DNA of 46,899 nucleotides from Brevinematales bacterium (lineage in GTDB: Bacteria > Spirochaetota > Brevinematia > Brevinematales > GWF1-51-8). The notes under the pieces are model-generated. The model was given only the letters and a program-made list of their open reading frames with translations. It was not told where the DNA came from and searched no databases. The translations under genes were made by a program, and so were the position numbers. The stretch's first letter is position 1. Each line of letters begins with the position of its first letter. This document shows positions 27,872 through 36,406 of the stretch, piece after piece. Location: contig JABLXV010000033.1 of NCBI GenBank assembly GCA_013177895.1, forward strand, positions 1-46,899. The letters run 5' to 3'.

Positions 27872-30319
27872 ATGAAGAAAGCCCTTACCGCGCTATTTTT
27901 ACTTATCATGCCGGTTTTCCTTTTCGCGAAAGCGCCGGAATTGAAAAACCCCAGTATAAAGGAAATCAGGTTCGAGGGAACTATCATTACGGTAAGCTCC
28001 AACCAGATACTGAAACTTTTGCCCTTTAAACAAGGGGACGCGTTCAAGGAAAAACTCTTCAACGACGCTATTAAAACACTCGCGGACCCGCGTCTCAGCC
28101 CCTTCAACGGCGACGTCAAGGGATACCTGAAAGATACCCCGGACGGCGTTATCCTGACGTTCGTTCTGCATGAAAACCCGTTAATCAATAAGGTGATCTT
28201 CGAGGGAAACAACTCCATTAATAAAAGCGACCTGTCGGATATTATCCCGATGGTCGAGGGAATGCATTATAACACCGACGACAAACTGACGTCGATCCAG
28301 CGTATCAAGGACAAGTACCTCAACGAAGGATTTATCGAGGCGAGTGTGTCCGCCAGTCTCGTGCCTGTGGATATCAAGCAGAATAAGTACGACATGGTGT
28401 TTACCGTCAGCGAGGGCAAGAAGATAGTCGTCGAGAAAATCGAGGTCGCGGGCGCGGCCGAAGTGAATTCCGGCGAGGTCAAGGGCGTGATGAAAACGAA
28501 GGAACAGGTATTCATCCTCCAGAGCGGAATCCTGAATATGGAAGATTTTTACGGCGATAAAGAACGCATCGGTATGCTGTACCAGCAGAAGGGCTATCTC
28601 GATATAAAAATTACCCGTTTTGAATGGAAGATAGAGGAACTCGGGGACGACAAGCATAAAGCGATCGTGGTCTATGTCGGATTGGTGGAAGGCCCTAAGT
28701 ATTATGTCGGAGATATCACGATCACGAATAACGTTCTCTTTTCCGAAGAGGACCTGCTGAAATTTATCGAGCTGAAACCGAACGATGTGTACGATAAAGT
28801 GAAGATCGATATCGGCCGGTATATGATATACAATAAGTACAGCGATAACGGGTATCTTTACGCGAATGTTTCCTACCAGATGATCAAGAACCCCACGAAC
28901 TTTATGGTCGATACGGTGTTCTATATCCATGAGGGCGAACGCGCCCATATCGAATCGGTAACATTGAACGGCAACACTAAAACCAAGGATAATGTGATAC
29001 TCCGCGAAATGATATTCGACGAGGGCGAGCTTTGGGTGCAGACTAAAGTACGGCAGAGCTATGAGAAGCTGGTGCAGCTTCAGTACTTCGGTAACGTGAA
29101 CTTCGTCCCGCAGCCGGGAAGCGCCGAGGGGCTTGTCAATATCGATATACAGCTTGAGGAGCAGCGCACCGGACTGATCACGTTCGGTATCGGGTACGGT
29201 ACCGCGAGCGGATTTAACGGGACGGCGCAGATTTCGGAAAATAACTTCCTCGGCACCGGAAGAGTCGTAGCGTTCAAAGGGGAGTACGGTGAAAAGCGGC
29301 AGCTGCTGGAATTATCGTTCACCGAACCGTGGCTTTTCGATACCCCGACGTATCTGTCCATTTCCTTCAGCTTCTCGCGTTACCTCTACGATAACATCCC
29401 CGTCGACGATAATCATGACGGTATTATCGACGGGACGAATATCAACTATGTCAGTAACAATACCGTTTCGCTTCCGTCGTTTATCTCGACCAATAAGTAT
29501 TATAAGCAGGCTTTTTCCTTCGGGCTGGAAATAAAAAAGCGGTTCGGAGTATACTGGGACGGATTCCTCTCATACGGGCTCAGCCTTTACCGCGATATGG
29601 ATGCGAACTTTAAAAACCCGTTGATTCTGAGCTCCACCTGGCAGCCGAATACATCTCTATCCAATTCGCTTACCCACGATTATACGTTTAAAAATACACT
29701 GGGTCTCGGTTTTAACTGGAACTCCACCGACCACCCGCTCAATCCTTTGCGCGGTATACTGGGATTCCTTTATCTTTATAATAACGGCGGTCTCCTCGGC
29801 GGGGATATCCATTATATCCGCGCGAAATACGGCCTGAGCTGGTATTGGAACCCGTTCTGGAAACTGGTTGTCGCGTTGCACGGATCCGGCGAGTTTATTA
29901 TGCCTCAGTTCTACTCGCAGCCTGGCGGGACGAAATTTCAGTACGATACCTCGGATATGCTCTACTTCGACGGGGTCTATGAAATGCGCGGATGGATGAA
30001 TTACCCGTACCGCGGCGAGGCTAAGGCATTCTACAGCGGCGAACTGCGTTTCGAGATATACGGCCAGGAATTATGGGGAGTGTTCTTCCTCGATATGGGA
30101 AGCCTGTGGAGTAAATATACTGAATGGACGTTCGAGCCGAATAATTATCTGTTCAGCTTCGGGTTCGGTGTAAAATTGAATATCCCGGGTCTCCCGATAC
30201 GTCTTTATCTCGCCCGGAAAGGCGGATTCGATAATACTTCGATGTCATGGAAGCTGGAAAAGAACCAGTACCTGCTCGATAACTGGCAGGTGGTGTTCTC
30301 GATACAGGGATTATTCTAG
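27872..30319 (+). CDS. bamA: BamA outer-membrane protein assembly factor
   Basis: The protein is 815 residues. A signal peptide ends near 'FLFAKAP'. Five POTRA domains follow, opening at 'IKEIRFEG', 'INKVIFEGN', 'VEKIEVAG', 'VGDITITNN' and 'IESVTLNGN'. The 16-strand barrel starts near 'GLITFGIGYGTASGFNGT' and ends in Phe ('SIQGLF'), the usual terminal signal. The loop-6 motif appears as MRGW in place of VRGF/Y. BamA inserts beta-barrel proteins into the outer membrane. It is followed 13 bp later by two Skp/OmpH genes, the classic arrangement. The start has GGAG at good distance. Confidence 0.95.
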   Translation: MKKALTALFLLIMPVFLFAKAPELKNPSIKEIRFEGTIITVSSNQILKLLPFKQGDAFKEKLFNDAIKTLADPRLSPFNGDVKGYLKDTPDGVILTFVLHENPLINKVIFEGNNSINKSDLSDIIPMVEGMHYNTDDKLTSIQRIKDKYLNEGFIEASVSASLVPVDIKQNKYDMVFTVSEGKKIVVEKIEVAGAAEVNSGEVKGVMKTKEQVFILQSGILNMEDFYGDKERIGMLYQQKGYLDIKITRFEWKIEELGDDKHKAIVVYVGLVEGPKYYVGDITITNNVLFSEEDLLKFIELKPNDVYDKVKIDIGRYMIYNKYSDNGYLYANVSYQMIKNPTNFMVDTVFYIHEGERAHIESVTLNGNTKTKDNVILREMIFDEGELWVQTKVRQSYEKLVQLQYFGNVNFVPQPGSAEGLVNIDIQLEEQRTGLITFGIGYGTASGFNGTAQISENNFLGTGRVVAFKGEYGEKRQLLELSFTEPWLFDTPTYLSISFSFSRYLYDNIPVDDNHDGIIDGTNINYVSNNTVSLPSFISTNKYYKQAFSFGLEIKKRFGVYWDGFLSYGLSLYRDMDANFKNPLILSSTWQPNTSLSNSLTHDYTFKNTLGLGFNWNSTDHPLNPLRGILGFLYLYNNGGLLGGDIHYIRAKYGLSWYWNPFWKLVVALHGSGEFIMPQFYSQPGGTKFQYDTSDMLYFDGVYEMRGWMNYPYRGEAKAFYSGELRFEIYGQELWGVFFLDMGSLWSKYTEWTFEPNNYLFSFGFGVKLNIPGLPIRLYLARKGGFDNTSMSWKLEKNQYLLDNWQVVFSIQGLF

Positions 30320-30332
30320 GGAGGCGGATGTT

Positions 30333-30920
30333 TTGATAAAAGGTTGGGTGTTTGCACCGGTTCTTCTCATCCTATTTGCTGCGGCTCAGAATTTTTATGG
30401 TTTTGGGCAAATGAAGCGTCTTGTCAAGGTAGGTTATGTTGATCTGGAATCTGTCAAGAACAATTTCCCTAACATTGAAGATATTAAGAAAAAAATCACT
30501 GATGAAACTACCAAAGTCGAGGCGGAGATTACCGTCAAGCAGAAAACGTTAGCCGATCTCGAGAAGGATTATCAGCAGAAATCCGCGACGCTGCCCCCCG
30601 AACAATTGAAACTGCTTGAGATGAAAATCGATACTGCGCGGAAAGAACTGACCTACTATGTGAAATGGGGCGAGGACTACATTGCATCGATCAAGGATCG
30701 TCTGATAACGCCCGTGAAGATAAAAATAAATAAATACATCAAATTGGTCAGTATCGATCAGGGATACAGCTTCGTTTTCATAAAAGGGTCGGATATGGTG
30801 GCTTACTATGATGAAAAATACGATGTCACCGGGCACATCCTATATAAGCTGAAAGTGGATTTAAAGGATGAGAAAATAGTTATATTACGCGAATGGAAGA
30901 AAAAAAATAAAATTAAATAG
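30333..30920 (+). CDS. Skp/OmpH family periplasmic chaperone (first copy)
   Basis: The protein is 195 residues if started at the TTG at 30333, which follows GGGAGGCGG and gives a complete signal peptide (hydrophobic to about residue 25). The next in-frame ATG (about 30411) would remove it. The mature part has the OmpH layout: 'VGYVDLESVKNNFPNIEDIKKK', a long charged coiled coil (about 50-120), then a return to 'GYSFVFIKGSD'. Skp trimers hold unfolded outer-membrane proteins for BamA. It lies 13 bp after bamA. Confidence 0.88.
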   Translation: MIKGWVFAPVLLILFAAAQNFYGFGQMKRLVKVGYVDLESVKNNFPNIEDIKKKITDETTKVEAEITVKQKTLADLEKDYQQKSATLPPEQLKLLEMKIDTARKELTYYVKWGEDYIASIKDRLITPVKIKINKYIKLVSIDQGYSFVFIKGSDMVAYYDEKYDVTGHILYKLKVDLKDEKIVILREWKKKNKIK

Positions 30921-30949
30921 AATCTTGTATTTCGGTTAGGAGGAATGAT

Positions 30950-31492
30950 ATGAAAAAAACTATTTTCAGCCTGATGGCCATAATGTTTTTAGCCAGCGGC
31001 GGGTTTGCCGCCGATGAGAATAAAAGGCTGGTACTGATAGGGTTTGTCGACGTCGAGGAAGTGGTCAAGTTCTACCCCGGTATCGAGGATGTCAAGCAGA
31101 AGATCAAGGTTGAGAAGGATAAATACCAAGTCCAGATCAACAAGCTGAAGGAAGAGATCGCGATCATGGAGCAGAACTATCAGCAGAACTTCAACTCGAT
31201 GACCGACGAAGAGAAGGAACGCCGCGAAGCCGAGATCCAGTATAAGAAAGAAACCCTATACGAATACATCGACGACGCGAATAAGAAGCTCGACGCGTTG
31301 AAGGAAGAACTGACCGGCCCTATTTACGCGAAAATCAGCGCGATTATCGAACGGGTCAGTAAGGAAAAGGGTTATAGTTTCGTCTTCAAGAAATCAAGCA
31401 AGGACATACTTTATGTCGATAAAGAATTCGACCTTACTCCCGACGTCATCGAGCGTCTCAAGAAAGAATTGCAGTTAGAGGACAGGGACTAG
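30950..31492 (+). CDS. Skp/OmpH family periplasmic chaperone (second copy)
   Basis: This 180-residue paralogue of the preceding gene has a signal peptide ending near 'GGFAADEN', then 'IGFVDVEEVVKFYPGIEDV', a Glu/Lys-rich coiled coil (about 50-115) and 'EKGYSFVFKKSSKDILYVD'. The two copies are clearly diverged, so they may serve different clients. The ATG follows AGGAGG. The HD-GYP-like gene begins 30 bp downstream, so it probably shares the transcript. Confidence 0.9.
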   Translation: MKKTIFSLMAIMFLASGGFAADENKRLVLIGFVDVEEVVKFYPGIEDVKQKIKVEKDKYQVQINKLKEEIAIMEQNYQQNFNSMTDEEKERREAEIQYKKETLYEYIDDANKKLDALKEELTGPIYAKISAIIERVSKEKGYSFVFKKSSKDILYVDKEFDLTPDVIERLKKELQLEDRD

Positions 31493-31522: not shown

Positions 31523-33070
31523 ATGGAGACAGGCGGGCAAGAATCTGCTTTTTCTCAGCAAAATGTACTTGAAATAGATAAAGTACAGTTAAAACCCGGG
31601 CAGGTTTTATTTGAGGAAATCCCGAACATACCCGGAATGAAATCGGGGTATGTTCTCTCGATCAGCGACATAGAAAAAATCCAGCGTTCGCCAAAAATCA
31701 CATCGGTAAAGATACTCCTGATAGAAAAGGCCTCCGATCTGCCACCCACCGCGCCGCACCGTTCGCGTACCGAACTCAAGGACGAGATACAGAAGCTCGA
31801 CCTGCCCGACCTTGAGAAGCGGAACTCCCTTTATGACCGGGGCCTCGGCGAACGTGTCGAGCAGCTTGTCGGATTGAAGAAGGAATTTATCCGCGGCGAG
31901 AAGTACCATGAACGGGTGGATACGCACCGCGAAGACAACATCAAAAAATTCCACAGCACCCTGAAAACTATCCATACCCAGCAGAAAGAAGAGACCATGC
32001 AGGCGATCGCCGTATTCGCGAAAAGCGCGGCGGATATCGACGGGCTGAGCGAGATCGACGGCCTCGATCTTCAGGCGCTGGTCAATAAGCTCGACCGTTA
32101 TGAGCGCAATATCAAGTATTTTATGGACGCGGTGGAACGCGAGAATATGATTATCACGGCGTTTATCGAGGAGATAGTGCTCGACTTTATCAACGACGTC
32201 GGGTTTCAGCTTGCCCGCGGGTTGTTTTCGGCAATTTCCAAAAACGAGCATTACTCCAATTTTATTATATCGCATACCCTTCAGGTGATGATAGTCGCGC
32301 TGATCACCGCGATAGAAATGTCTAAAATGATTACCGAGAAAACGGCCGAGATGAAACATAACGACCTGAATACGTTCCTGGCGATCGGTAAAAAATCCTA
32401 CCAGCTGGAAGATTTAATCAATCTCGGCATCGCGGCTGTTCTGCACGATATCGATATCAAGATACGGGTTCCCGACCTGACCTATAGTTATAACGGCGGG
32501 TATGAGTGGGATTCGATTATAGATACCCACCCGACTAACGGGTTTCACCTGGTCAAACGGCTCGGGCTGAGTTTCGATGTCGAACGCGCGGTCTTCCAGC
32601 ACCATGAGCGTATCGACGGGTCGGGATTCCCTAACGGGACATTGCCCCGTTTCTTTTCGAAATATACTCCTGTTATCATGTTCGCCGAGCATTATATCGA
32701 ATCCACCACCCCGAATCCGTTCGTCGATAAGTATTACTCGCCGCGCACGGCGCTTGTGGAGATTCTCAGCAGACAGAGGCATCAGCTCGACGGCGACAGC
32801 ATCTACGCGTTTATCCGCGCCGCGTCGCTTTTCCCCATCGGGACATGGCTCCTCCTTTCCGACGGGAATATCGGGATAGTGTACGATATCAACAAGGAGC
32901 TTCTGGAACGGCCTATCCTGAAAGTATTTTTCGACAGGAGTCTCCAGCGCGTGAATCCGTTCATGGAGGATTTGTCGAAGTCGAATGTTCAGATAGTCAA
33001 GCCGATAGACCTGAGCTCAATACGGAAAATCGCGGGCGGCCCGCTGAATTTTATCTTTTCAAACACTTAA
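31523..33070 (+). CDS. HD-GYP-like domain protein 1
   Basis: The protein is 515 residues and cytoplasmic. The N-terminal part (about 15-70) resembles the DUF3391-like region before HD-GYP domains; a helical middle follows. The HD domain spans about 240-420, with 'SHTLQV' near 250, 'LHDIDIK' near 306 and 'HHERIDGSGFP' near 358. HD-GYP enzymes hydrolyse cyclic di-GMP. The usual HDxGK reads HDIDI here, so the lysine is absent, and the third motif is GFP rather than GYP. The late 'vaD' aspartate is replaced by 'FAE'. Activity is uncertain. A conserved C-terminal extension 'LLSDGNIGIVYD' follows. It is the most divergent of three tandem copies and is likely co-transcribed with skp. Confidence 0.78.
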   Translation: METGGQESAFSQQNVLEIDKVQLKPGQVLFEEIPNIPGMKSGYVLSISDIEKIQRSPKITSVKILLIEKASDLPPTAPHRSRTELKDEIQKLDLPDLEKRNSLYDRGLGERVEQLVGLKKEFIRGEKYHERVDTHREDNIKKFHSTLKTIHTQQKEETMQAIAVFAKSAADIDGLSEIDGLDLQALVNKLDRYERNIKYFMDAVERENMIITAFIEEIVLDFINDVGFQLARGLFSAISKNEHYSNFIISHTLQVMIVALITAIEMSKMITEKTAEMKHNDLNTFLAIGKKSYQLEDLINLGIAAVLHDIDIKIRVPDLTYSYNGGYEWDSIIDTHPTNGFHLVKRLGLSFDVERAVFQHHERIDGSGFPNGTLPRFFSKYTPVIMFAEHYIESTTPNPFVDKYYSPRTALVEILSRQRHQLDGDSIYAFIRAASLFPIGTWLLLSDGNIGIVYDINKELLERPILKVFFDRSLQRVNPFMEDLSKSNVQIVKPIDLSSIRKIAGGPLNFIFSNT

Positions 33071-33098
33071 AAATATTGCGAAAAATTTAAAAATATTC

Positions 33099-33127
33099 TT
33101 GCGAACTTCATCGTAATGTATTATACT
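33099..33127 (+). promoter_or_regulatory. Predicted promoter for second HD-GYP-like gene
   Basis: TTGCGA at 33099-33104 and TATACT at 33122-33127 are 17 bp apart, 29 bp before the ATG. Confidence 0.6.
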
Positions 33128-33156
33128 GAATAGAAGAAAGTGGGGTTAAACAGGAT

Positions 33157-34710
33157 ATGGAAGGATTTTCGCATCTTTCGGTTCCTATTGCCGAGCTGCG
33201 TGAGGGGATGGTCCTGAATCAGGACCTGACGCACACGGTGGGCTTACGGCAGGGACGCGTATTGACTACGATCGACATCAAGCGGATACGGGAACTTCGT
33301 CCCGTACCTATACTCCAAGTTGTCATTTCTCACACGCTCCGTTCTCAAATGAATATACAGGTTTCCGACGATGAATCCCGTAGGCTCGGTAACGAGCAGG
33401 GTAAAGCGGCGCTCAAGTCGATCCAGATCGAGCATTACCGTGAAGTGCTCGGGGAAACCGATACCCGGAAGGCATTGGAGGATAAGACGCTCGATGTGAC
33501 CCTGCGGAGTCTGGTCGAGAAGAAAAAATCCGTTATCCGCGGGGAAGAGAATATCACGGCGTACCAGGCCTATAAGAATGCGAATATCGATAAATATATC
33601 AATTCCGTCAAGACTGCCCAGACCACCGCGCCGAAGGATACGATTAATATCATCGAGCATTACGCTCAATCCCACGCGGATATGGAATCGCTATCCAGCG
33701 TGGACGCGCTCGATACGAAAAAGATTGTAGTACGCAGCGATTCATATGAAGTGGATACCGAGCATTTTCTCGATGCGGTGCTGAATAAAAAATCCGTCCA
33801 TACGGCGTTCGTCGAAAATCTGGTCGTCGATTTTCTGGCGGATATGGGGTACGAACTCGCTCGCGGTATGCTCGTGTTTCTTTCGCGTAACGAGTCGAAG
33901 CGCGCGTTCATTTCGTCGCATTCCCTGCAGGTGATGATTATTTCGCTCGTGACGGCGATCGAGCTGACGCGAATGATCAATAAAAAGTCGGAATGTTTGG
34001 ATTCCGGCGACCTGTCGACATTCCTGTCGATCAGTAAAAAGACCTTCACGCTGGAGGAATTGGTCAACCTCGGGATTGCGGCGCTCCTGCATGACGTGGA
34101 GTTTCGCAAGCAGGTTCCCGACCTGAAGGCCGACTCCGTATTTTCGATGCAGCAGCAGTCGATTATCGATCTGCATACCAGTAACGGCTACCATATCGCG
34201 AAAATGCTGAACATCGATTTTGAGGTGCAGCGCGCGGTATTCCAGCACCACGAGCGTTACGACGGGAGCGGATATCCCAGCGGACTGCATCCGCGTTTCT
34301 TCACGAAATACACCCCGATACTGATTTTCGCCGAGCATTATACGGAAAGTGTCACAAAAAACCCGTTTTTCGATCGGGTATTATCCCCCCGCGATACGGT
34401 CGTGCGTCTTTTATCCGCCGAACGGGCGAAATTCGACGGCGATATCACTTACGCCTTCCTGAAGGCAGCGTCGTTATTCCCTGTGGGGGGATGGGTACTA
34501 TTATCGGACAACCGGATCGGACTGGTGCGCGCGGTCAATTCCGAAAAACTGGATAAGCCGACCGTCGGCGTCTATTTCGATCAAACTTTTAATAAAATCT
34601 CTCCCGAAGAAATTAACCTCTCGAAGAGCGCGATTGAAATCGTCAAGCCGTTATCATGGGATATAGTCCGAAACGCGGTCAAAGGCCCGATCGATTTTAT
34701 CTATCATTGA
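33157..34710 (+). CDS. HD-GYP-like domain protein 2
   Basis: The protein is 517 residues with the same layout as its two neighbours. It opens 'LSVPIAELREGMVLNQDLT', the typical N-terminal module of HD-GYP proteins. The HD part has 'SSHSLQVMI', 'LHDVEFRKQVPDL' near residue 310 and an intact 'HHERYDGSGYPSGL' near 361. The lysine of HDxGK is again missing (HDVEF), and 'IFAEHYTES' replaces the usual 'vaDvfdA'. The conserved substitutions argue for an altered rather than randomly decayed site. Close to protein 3 throughout, so that pair is a recent duplication. It has its own promoter, whose -35 (TTGCGA) is like that of the next copy. Confidence 0.8.
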   Translation: MEGFSHLSVPIAELREGMVLNQDLTHTVGLRQGRVLTTIDIKRIRELRPVPILQVVISHTLRSQMNIQVSDDESRRLGNEQGKAALKSIQIEHYREVLGETDTRKALEDKTLDVTLRSLVEKKKSVIRGEENITAYQAYKNANIDKYINSVKTAQTTAPKDTINIIEHYAQSHADMESLSSVDALDTKKIVVRSDSYEVDTEHFLDAVLNKKSVHTAFVENLVVDFLADMGYELARGMLVFLSRNESKRAFISSHSLQVMIISLVTAIELTRMINKKSECLDSGDLSTFLSISKKTFTLEELVNLGIAALLHDVEFRKQVPDLKADSVFSMQQQSIIDLHTSNGYHIAKMLNIDFEVQRAVFQHHERYDGSGYPSGLHPRFFTKYTPILIFAEHYTESVTKNPFFDRVLSPRDTVVRLLSAERAKFDGDITYAFLKAASLFPVGGWVLLSDNRIGLVRAVNSEKLDKPTVGVYFDQTFNKISPEEINLSKSAIEIVKPLSWDIVRNAVKGPIDFIYH

Positions 34711-34794
34711 ACGCTTCATTCATCATTGATATATATCATTTTTATTACTTTATATAGCGCAAATATTCTAATATATAAAAATACAAAAAAATCC

Positions 34795-34823
34795 TTGCGG
34801 AAAAGATTCTTCAATGCTAAAAT
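34795..34823 (+). promoter_or_regulatory. Predicted promoter for third HD-GYP-like gene
   Basis: TTGCGG at 34795-34800 and TAAAAT at 34818-34823 are 17 bp apart. The 34711-34794 stretch before it is AT-rich with no gene. Confidence 0.55.
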
Positions 34824-34852
34824 AATACTGTCGGATGCTATAGGATATAATT

Positions 34853-36406
34853 ATGGATAATTTTTCACTTCTTCAGGTTCCTATCAACGATTTACGCGAG
34901 GGAATGGTTCTCAATCAGGATTTAACCGCGGATATAGGTTTACGGCAGGGTCGGGTATTGACCGCGTCCGATATCGGGAAAATCAGGGAATTGAAACCCA
35001 ACGAAAAACTCTCCGTCGTACTATCTAATTCGTTACGGTCGCAATTAAACATTCCCGATCCCGTCAGACCCGCTAATGCGGCAAGTGATAATAAGCGCGG
35101 AGGTTCGTTAAAATCTTCGCAGATCGCCAATTTCCGTGATGCGCTCGGGGAAAATGAAATCCGAGCGTCATTGAACGATCAGAATCTTGACGGCGCGCTT
35201 AAGGGGATTGTTGAAAAAAAGAAAGCGGTGATTCGCGGGGACGATTACCAGAACAGGGTGGAAAACTACCGGAACGAGCATCTTGAGAAGTATAAAAACT
35301 CCATCAAATCGATACAGACGTCTACACGTAAGGACACCCTGAATATCATCGATCATTATGCGCAAACGCATGCCGATATGGAATCGTTGAACGATGTAGA
35401 CGCGCTTGAGACCGGAGAACTGGTCAATCGCAGCGATACCTATGAACAGAACGCCCAGTTTTTTATGGACTCAATCCTGACGAAAAAGACCGTGTTTACC
35501 TCGTTTGTAGAAAACATCGTGGTCGATTTCCTGGCGGATATGGGGTACGATCTTGCGCGCGGGATGCTCGCGTTCCTTTCCCGAAATGAATCGAAGGTTT
35601 CGTATATCGCTTCGCATTCCCTTCAGGTGATGATCGTCGCGCTGGTCGCCGCTATCGAGCTGACCCGTATTATCAACATGAAATCCCAAACCCTCGACTC
35701 GGAAGATTTAGGTACTCTCCTTTCGATCAGCAAGAAATCGTTCACCCTCGAGGAACTGGTCAATCTGGGAATTGCGGCGTTACTCCACGATATCGAATTC
35801 CGTAAGCAAGTGCCCGACCTGAAAGAAAACTCTATTTTTAACATACAGCAACAGTCGATCATCGACCTGCACCCGAGTAACGGTTACCATCTGGCGAAGA
35901 CCCTGAACATCGATTTCGAGGTTCAGCGCGCGGTATTCCAGCACCACGAGCGTTATGACGGAAGCGGGTATCCGAGCGGGCTTCATCCGCGCTTCTTTAC
36001 CAAATATACCCCGGTATTAATGTTCGCCGAGTATTACACCGAGATGATTACCCGCAATCCGTTTGTCAATACGATACTCACCCCCCGCGATACGGTGGTG
36101 AAGCTGCTGTCGAGCGAACGGGCAAAATTCGACGGCGACGTGATTTATGCGTTCCTCAAAGCGGCGTCGTTATATCCGGTGGGGAGTTGGGTAGTGTTAT
36201 CCGATTCCCGGATCGGGTTGGTTCGCGGGGTTAATTCCGAAAAGCTCGACCGCCCGACAATCGGCGTGTATTTCGATAGAAACTTCTCACGCATGGATAT
36301 TGAGGATGTCAATCTGATGAAAAGCCCGTTGCAGATAGTTAAACCTCTCTCATGGGATATCGTGCGCAGCGCGGTCAAAGAACCCCTCGATTTTATTTAT
36401 CGCTAA
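34853..36406 (+). CDS. HD-GYP-like domain protein 3
   Basis: The protein is 517 residues and nearly co-linear with protein 2 over its whole length, including 'INDLREGMVLNQDL', the helical middle 'YAQTHADMESLNDVDALE', 'LHDIEFRKQVPDL' near 310 and 'HHERYDGSGYPSGL' near 362. As in its neighbours the Gly-Lys of HDxGK is replaced (HDIEF). The C-terminal part 'VLSDSRIGLVRGVNSEKLD' is shared by all three. There are no membrane segments or receiver domain, so the input is probably the N-terminal module. Possibly a c-di-GMP binding or hydrolysing protein; catalysis is not assured. Confidence 0.8.
   Translation: MDNFSLLQVPINDLREGMVLNQDLTADIGLRQGRVLTASDIGKIRELKPNEKLSVVLSNSLRSQLNIPDPVRPANAASDNKRGGSLKSSQIANFRDALGENEIRASLNDQNLDGALKGIVEKKKAVIRGDDYQNRVENYRNEHLEKYKNSIKSIQTSTRKDTLNIIDHYAQTHADMESLNDVDALETGELVNRSDTYEQNAQFFMDSILTKKTVFTSFVENIVVDFLADMGYDLARGMLAFLSRNESKVSYIASHSLQVMIVALVAAIELTRIINMKSQTLDSEDLGTLLSISKKSFTLEELVNLGIAALLHDIEFRKQVPDLKENSIFNIQQQSIIDLHPSNGYHLAKTLNIDFEVQRAVFQHHERYDGSGYPSGLHPRFFTKYTPVLMFAEYYTEMITRNPFVNTILTPRDTVVKLLSSERAKFDGDVIYAFLKAASLYPVGSWVVLSDSRIGLVRGVNSEKLDRPTIGVYFDRNFSRMDIEDVNLMKSPLQIVKPLSWDIVRSAVKEPLDFIYR

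Follow-up and report, generated by a model that had tools for sequence, protein, structure and literature searches.

The window analysed here, a stretch of 46,899 nucleotides from a Brevinematales bacterium (contig JABLXV010000033.1 of assembly GCA_013177895.1), encodes three adjacent HD-GYP-like proteins, termed P1, P2 and P3 in the following. An earlier note on this DNA had described three such open reading frames directly downstream of bamA-skp, and all three are indeed found there as intact reading frames. The locus is composed of the following features:

27872..30319, plus strand: bamA-like gene (context; the name comes from the earlier note and the tamB/skp surroundings)
30333..31492, plus strand: two OmpH/Skp genes upstream of P1 (30333-30920 and 30950-31492; PF03938)
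31523..33070, plus strand: P1, divergent HD-GYP protein of 515 aa (motifs HDIDIKIRVPD, HHERIDGSGFP, FAE and NPF)
33099..33127, plus strand: promoter-like block before P2 (TTGCGA, 17 nt, TATACT; a consensus match only)
33157..34710, plus strand: P2, divergent HD-GYP protein of 517 aa (motifs HDVEFRKQVPD, HHERYDGSGYP, FAE and NPF)
34794..34823, plus strand: promoter-like block before P3 (CTTGCGG, with TAAAAT 17 nt after the hexamer TTGCGG; sub-threshold in the promoter scan)
34853..36406, plus strand: P3, divergent HD-GYP protein of 517 aa (motifs HDIEFRKQVPD, HHERYDGSGYP, FAE and NPF)

The genes upstream follow the order tamB, bamA, skp, skp, and a gap of 30 bp separates the second skp gene from P1. 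The OmpH/Skp genes are doubled and consecutive behind bamA (30333-31492). Within the genus the order bamA-skp-skp-P1 is conserved, and the placement of P1 after the second skp gene is kept in L029, L030 and L032. The promoter-like blocks 5' of P2 and P3 recur largely unchanged in the two relatives L029 and L030, lending modest support to the earlier claim that the last two genes have promoters of their own. Based on these conserved blocks, P1 is probably transcribed together with bamA-skp in the same operon, and transcription of P2 and P3 may start separately. In GWF1_51_8, a 316-aa ORF without Pfam match lies at the expected place of P2 (L032:6957-7904), and a family paralogue is encoded on a separate contig, away from the bamA locus (L031:186-1736). 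The earlier note had also suggested a possible link of the three proteins to envelope state. As a general rule this link has to be rejected, because bamA-skp-P1 synteny is seen within the genus only and members elsewhere lie next to unrelated genes such as lon, mutL, gidA and recJ.

P1 to P3 are divergent HD-GYP proteins. Their motifs read as had been quoted: HDIDI, HDVEF and HDIEF stand where HDxGK is expected, HHExxDGxG(Y/F)P is kept and FAE replaces the late vaD. The HHExxDGxGYP motif is exact in P2 and P3 and has F for Y in P1; in five distant family members the tyrosine is T, F, A or S. P2 and P3 share 67% identity, P1 and P3 43%. The matches to Pfam HD_5 are weak and above the cut-off (31.3, 31.0 and 36.9 bits for P1, P2 and P3 versus 27.2 bits), other HD-GYP proteins of the same genome scoring up to 151 bits, and 24 of 24 aligned family members match HD_5 at E < 0.01. 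P3 consists of a DUF3391-like N-terminus (about aa 5-58), the HD-GYP core (about 250-440) and a C-terminal beta barrel (about 438-510). The terminal regions match those of other spirochaetal HD-GYP proteins, including some encoded in the same genome (hhalign probability 92.7% for the N-terminal and 99.5% for the C-terminal region). A family-specific insertion separates core helices one and two (about P3 275-297), and E269, K295, NPF at 402-404, D429 and W446 are near-invariant in the family. The core of P3 is predicted to adopt an HD-GYP fold. A full-length AlphaFold run with 11 close sequences yielded a core pLDDT of 65 and improved upon addition of HD-GYP proteins from viral contigs; the model of P3 190-517 has a pLDDT of 83. 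With this model, Foldseek gives 14 matches at E up to 0.001, every one of them an HD-GYP entry with a moderate TM-score (0.34-0.63); Bd1817 (E 1.3e-6) comes first, followed by DvhD, PA4781 and PmGH. The best PDB profile match is the cGAMP-specific V-cGAP3 (E 3.7e-12), which ranks 17th by structure.

The searches place P1 to P3 in a rare HD-GYP branch that is so far spirochaete-only among the genomes searched, which come from two phyla. With a profile of 24 members, 18 of the 393 Spirochaetota genomes searched prove to contain the family, namely four of the same genus, four of one family (f5) of the same class and ten from other parts of the phylum. The remaining families of the same order that were searched contain no family member, and in the phylum of the L033 record (Candidatus Contendobacter), of which 299 genomes were covered, none reached 1e-50. 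Within Spirochaetota there is a clear score gap, members reaching at least 360 bits and other HD-GYP proteins at most 160 bits; the one member below 360 bits (242 bits) is part of a gene that masked bases interrupt. In a scan of named genomes, whose search patterns were too narrow for distant family members, the closest records were Spirochaetes GWF1_49_6, Brevinematales DeMMO6_14 and Spirochaetes GWF1_51_8. In five distant members the C-terminus is formed by a PilZ domain with the RxxxR and [DN]xSxxG c-di-GMP motifs. In a tree of the HD-GYP core the family is monophyletic (FastTree, support 1.0), and P1 to P3 cluster together inside it. The dN/dS values of the trio versus its relatives (0.05-0.10; bamA 0.03-0.06) indicate strong purifying selection. 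The earlier note had argued that the shared motif changes reflect a site altered under selection. The low dN/dS values and the deep family support an altered site that is maintained by selection; the sharing itself, however, is by descent and not independent, and convergent selection within the trio is ruled out because the three proteins group together inside the family.

Annotation as an HD-GYP protein usually assumes c-di-GMP hydrolysis. The family described here keeps the whole His/Asp metal site, but its catalytic pair and its guanine contacts are lost or displaced. In the numbering of PmGH from Persephonella marina (4MCW/4MDZ), H189, H221, D222, H250, H276 and H277 are invariant in the alignment of 27 of 27 members. 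PmGH and the trio share the fold class and six of the eight metal ligands; the trio is without E185 (third metal), D183, D308, R314 and K317, D305 is changed to E, and K225 is absent or displaced. At the D183 position the trio has S, R or V, and the residue is lost family-wide except in f5, which keeps it. The D305 position holds E in the genus, the trio included, and in f5, and varies among D, N, V and E in the other members; D308 is I or T in the trio and kept in only two PilZ-bearing members. R314 is replaced by N across the family, the trio included (S in one member), K317 is lost (V or F in the trio), and NPF stands in place of RPY. In PmGH, the exchanges K225A, D183A and D308A abolished activity and D305A markedly lowered it, while R314 and K317 touch guanine and are dispensable for turnover, R314A and K317A barely reducing activity (PMC4159591). 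Since the metal site appears to be kept while the residues for cutting c-di-GMP appear lost or shifted, P1 to P3 are probably regulators and not standard enzymes.

That the HDxGK lysine is missing, as claimed before, holds for the motif position itself. However, one residue past the K225 slot, at P3 position 317, K or R is present in 21 of 22 non-PilZ members versus a background of 12%, a count that is a lead and not proof because common descent inflates it; in the PilZ-bearing members this position is K or R in none of five. Three alignment methods (phmmer versus PmGH, MAFFT with 35 other HD-GYP proteins, and hhalign) place K/R317 under K225 with a one-residue insertion, whereas L-INS-i, one of four, opens no insertion and leaves K/R317 off K225. 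In the AlphaFold model K/R317 lies within a short helix right after HD. The lysine may hence be displaced by one residue rather than absent, and the shifted lysine that the earlier note had named as evidence against its own reading is half borne out, by three of the four methods. The difference between PilZ and non-PilZ members offers a direct way to test what the HDxGK lysine does. Lysine loss as a unique property is ruled out, as nearby spirochaetal HD-GYP proteins and paralogues in the same genome have M or Y instead (HEIGM, HDIGM, YDIGM, FDIGM, HDIGY). The paralogues of the same genome (L013, L014 and L024) read HDIGY, YDIGM and FDIGM, so that loss of the lysine or the histidine is not rare in this genome. 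A separate group (L096, L098, L101, L103, L104, L105 and L107) carries HEIGM or HEVGM (D222 to E, K225 to M) together with C at the D305 position, which is another coherent site alteration in spirochaetal HD-GYP proteins.

With moderate confidence, we favour the view that P1 to P3 are metal-binding, catalytically impaired regulators or modules of the c-di-GMP network. Judged from the six invariant ligands, the core of these proteins would bind two metals. With the D183/K225 pair broken or displaced and the guanine-reading residues replaced, they would not act as standard c-di-GMP phosphodiesterases and would most likely be signalling modules that are loaded with metal and have weak or no activity, similar in this to Bd1817 or DvhD. 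Such modules might pass their state to partner proteins, and in the sister members the output is possibly the fused PilZ domain. Against impairment speaks that the conserved basic residue after the K225 slot could preserve catalysis. Bd1817 from Bdellovibrio bacteriovorus (PDB 3TM8) resembles the family in its HD-GYP domain, its DUF3391 N-terminus and its di-metal site, which is a predicted one in the family; Bd1817 is inactive on c-di-GMP and holds di-iron. Its altered last ligand is Asn, as in four PilZ-bearing family members. Bd1817 is without the GYP tyrosine, whereas P2 and P3 retain GYP, their last ligand being E, and the core insertion (about P3 275-297) is the family's own.

Degenerate HD-GYP proteins are already known, also in Leptospira, and the P1-P3 family is a conserved and unusual variant of them. 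The published Leptospira proteins include the similar paralogues LIC_10138 and LIC_10139, which have consecutive locus tags (PMC12943098, PMC5932348). Like the trio, the Leptospira proteins are spirochaetal and combine a DUF3391-like N-terminus and a C-terminal barrel-like region with degenerate sites; in a comparison by published descriptions, they are reported to have lost HD residues, whereas the trio's family keeps HD and HHExxDGxG. One of them, LA2383, was reported to be without the HD pair and still hydrolyses c-di-GMP and pGpG (PMC5932348). Motif loss is therefore no proof of inactivity, and given the published degenerate HD-GYP proteins, the predictive value of motifs alone is limited.

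It is unlikely, in our view, that P1 to P3 are working c-di-GMP/pGpG phosphodiesterases in which K/R317 supplies the lysine via the one-residue insertion and E acts as ligand in place of D305. The frequency of K/R317, its alignment under K225 and its place in the helix after HD would fit such an enzyme, as would the D183 kept in f5 and the activity of the degenerate LA2383, but one alignment method makes do without the insertion, and the trio itself has replaced D183 and D308, at either of which alanine abolishes PmGH activity. A more far-reaching proposal, which we consider quite unlikely, is that in a spirochaete-specific HD-GYP clade the catalytic basic residue has shifted by one position and the substrate pocket has been remade, with NPF in place of RPY and the core insertion. 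The proteins would then be metal-dependent sensors of, or enzymes for, a nucleotide not yet recognised, and in one lineage their output would have passed to the fused PilZ domain, the basic residue being lost in exactly those members. Highly unlikely is hydrolysis of another nucleotide or phosphoester in a pocket rebuilt around the kept metal site. The invariance of all six His/Asp ligands, the family's own near-invariant residues and the profile match to cGAMP-specific V-cGAP3 are compatible with this idea; however, the V-cGAP3 alignment covers the generic HD-GYP core and its structural rank is low, and the drift of the D305 position between E, D, N and V would be odd for one conserved enzyme.

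In the relatives of P1 to P3 a tie to c-di-GMP signalling is apparent from the PilZ fusions and a GGDEF neighbour. The L070 member is preceded on the same strand by a GGDEF gene, with 50 bp between the two, and a divergent REC-GGDEF gene adjoins the L066 member; outside the genus, the other neighbours are unrelated. The window trio has neither a PilZ domain nor an adjoining GGDEF gene. The host genome contains 15 GGDEF matches over the cut-off, 15 other HD-GYP matches and 10 PilZ matches, and the GGDEF matches suggest that it probably makes c-di-GMP. The earlier idea of c-di-GMP receptors agrees with the tie seen in relatives, but a canonical receptor is doubtful since R314 and K317 are replaced. 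DvhD from Desulfovibrio vulgaris (9RBZ), catalytically dead with a signalling role and a close structural match to the P3 model, is a c-di-GMP receptor in which no metal was seen (PMC13090378), and host c-di-GMP would supply the ligand for a similar role; it is nevertheless hardly probable that P1 to P3 are DvhD-like receptors with a canonical HD-GYP pocket, because DvhD has lost its metal ligands and holds c-di-GMP at the canonical site, whereas the family is without the PmGH guanine contacts and kept the ligands, suggesting that the metals matter. In L071 (4883-6514), a caspase-domain protein (Peptidase_C14) is encoded two genes from a PilZ-bearing member.
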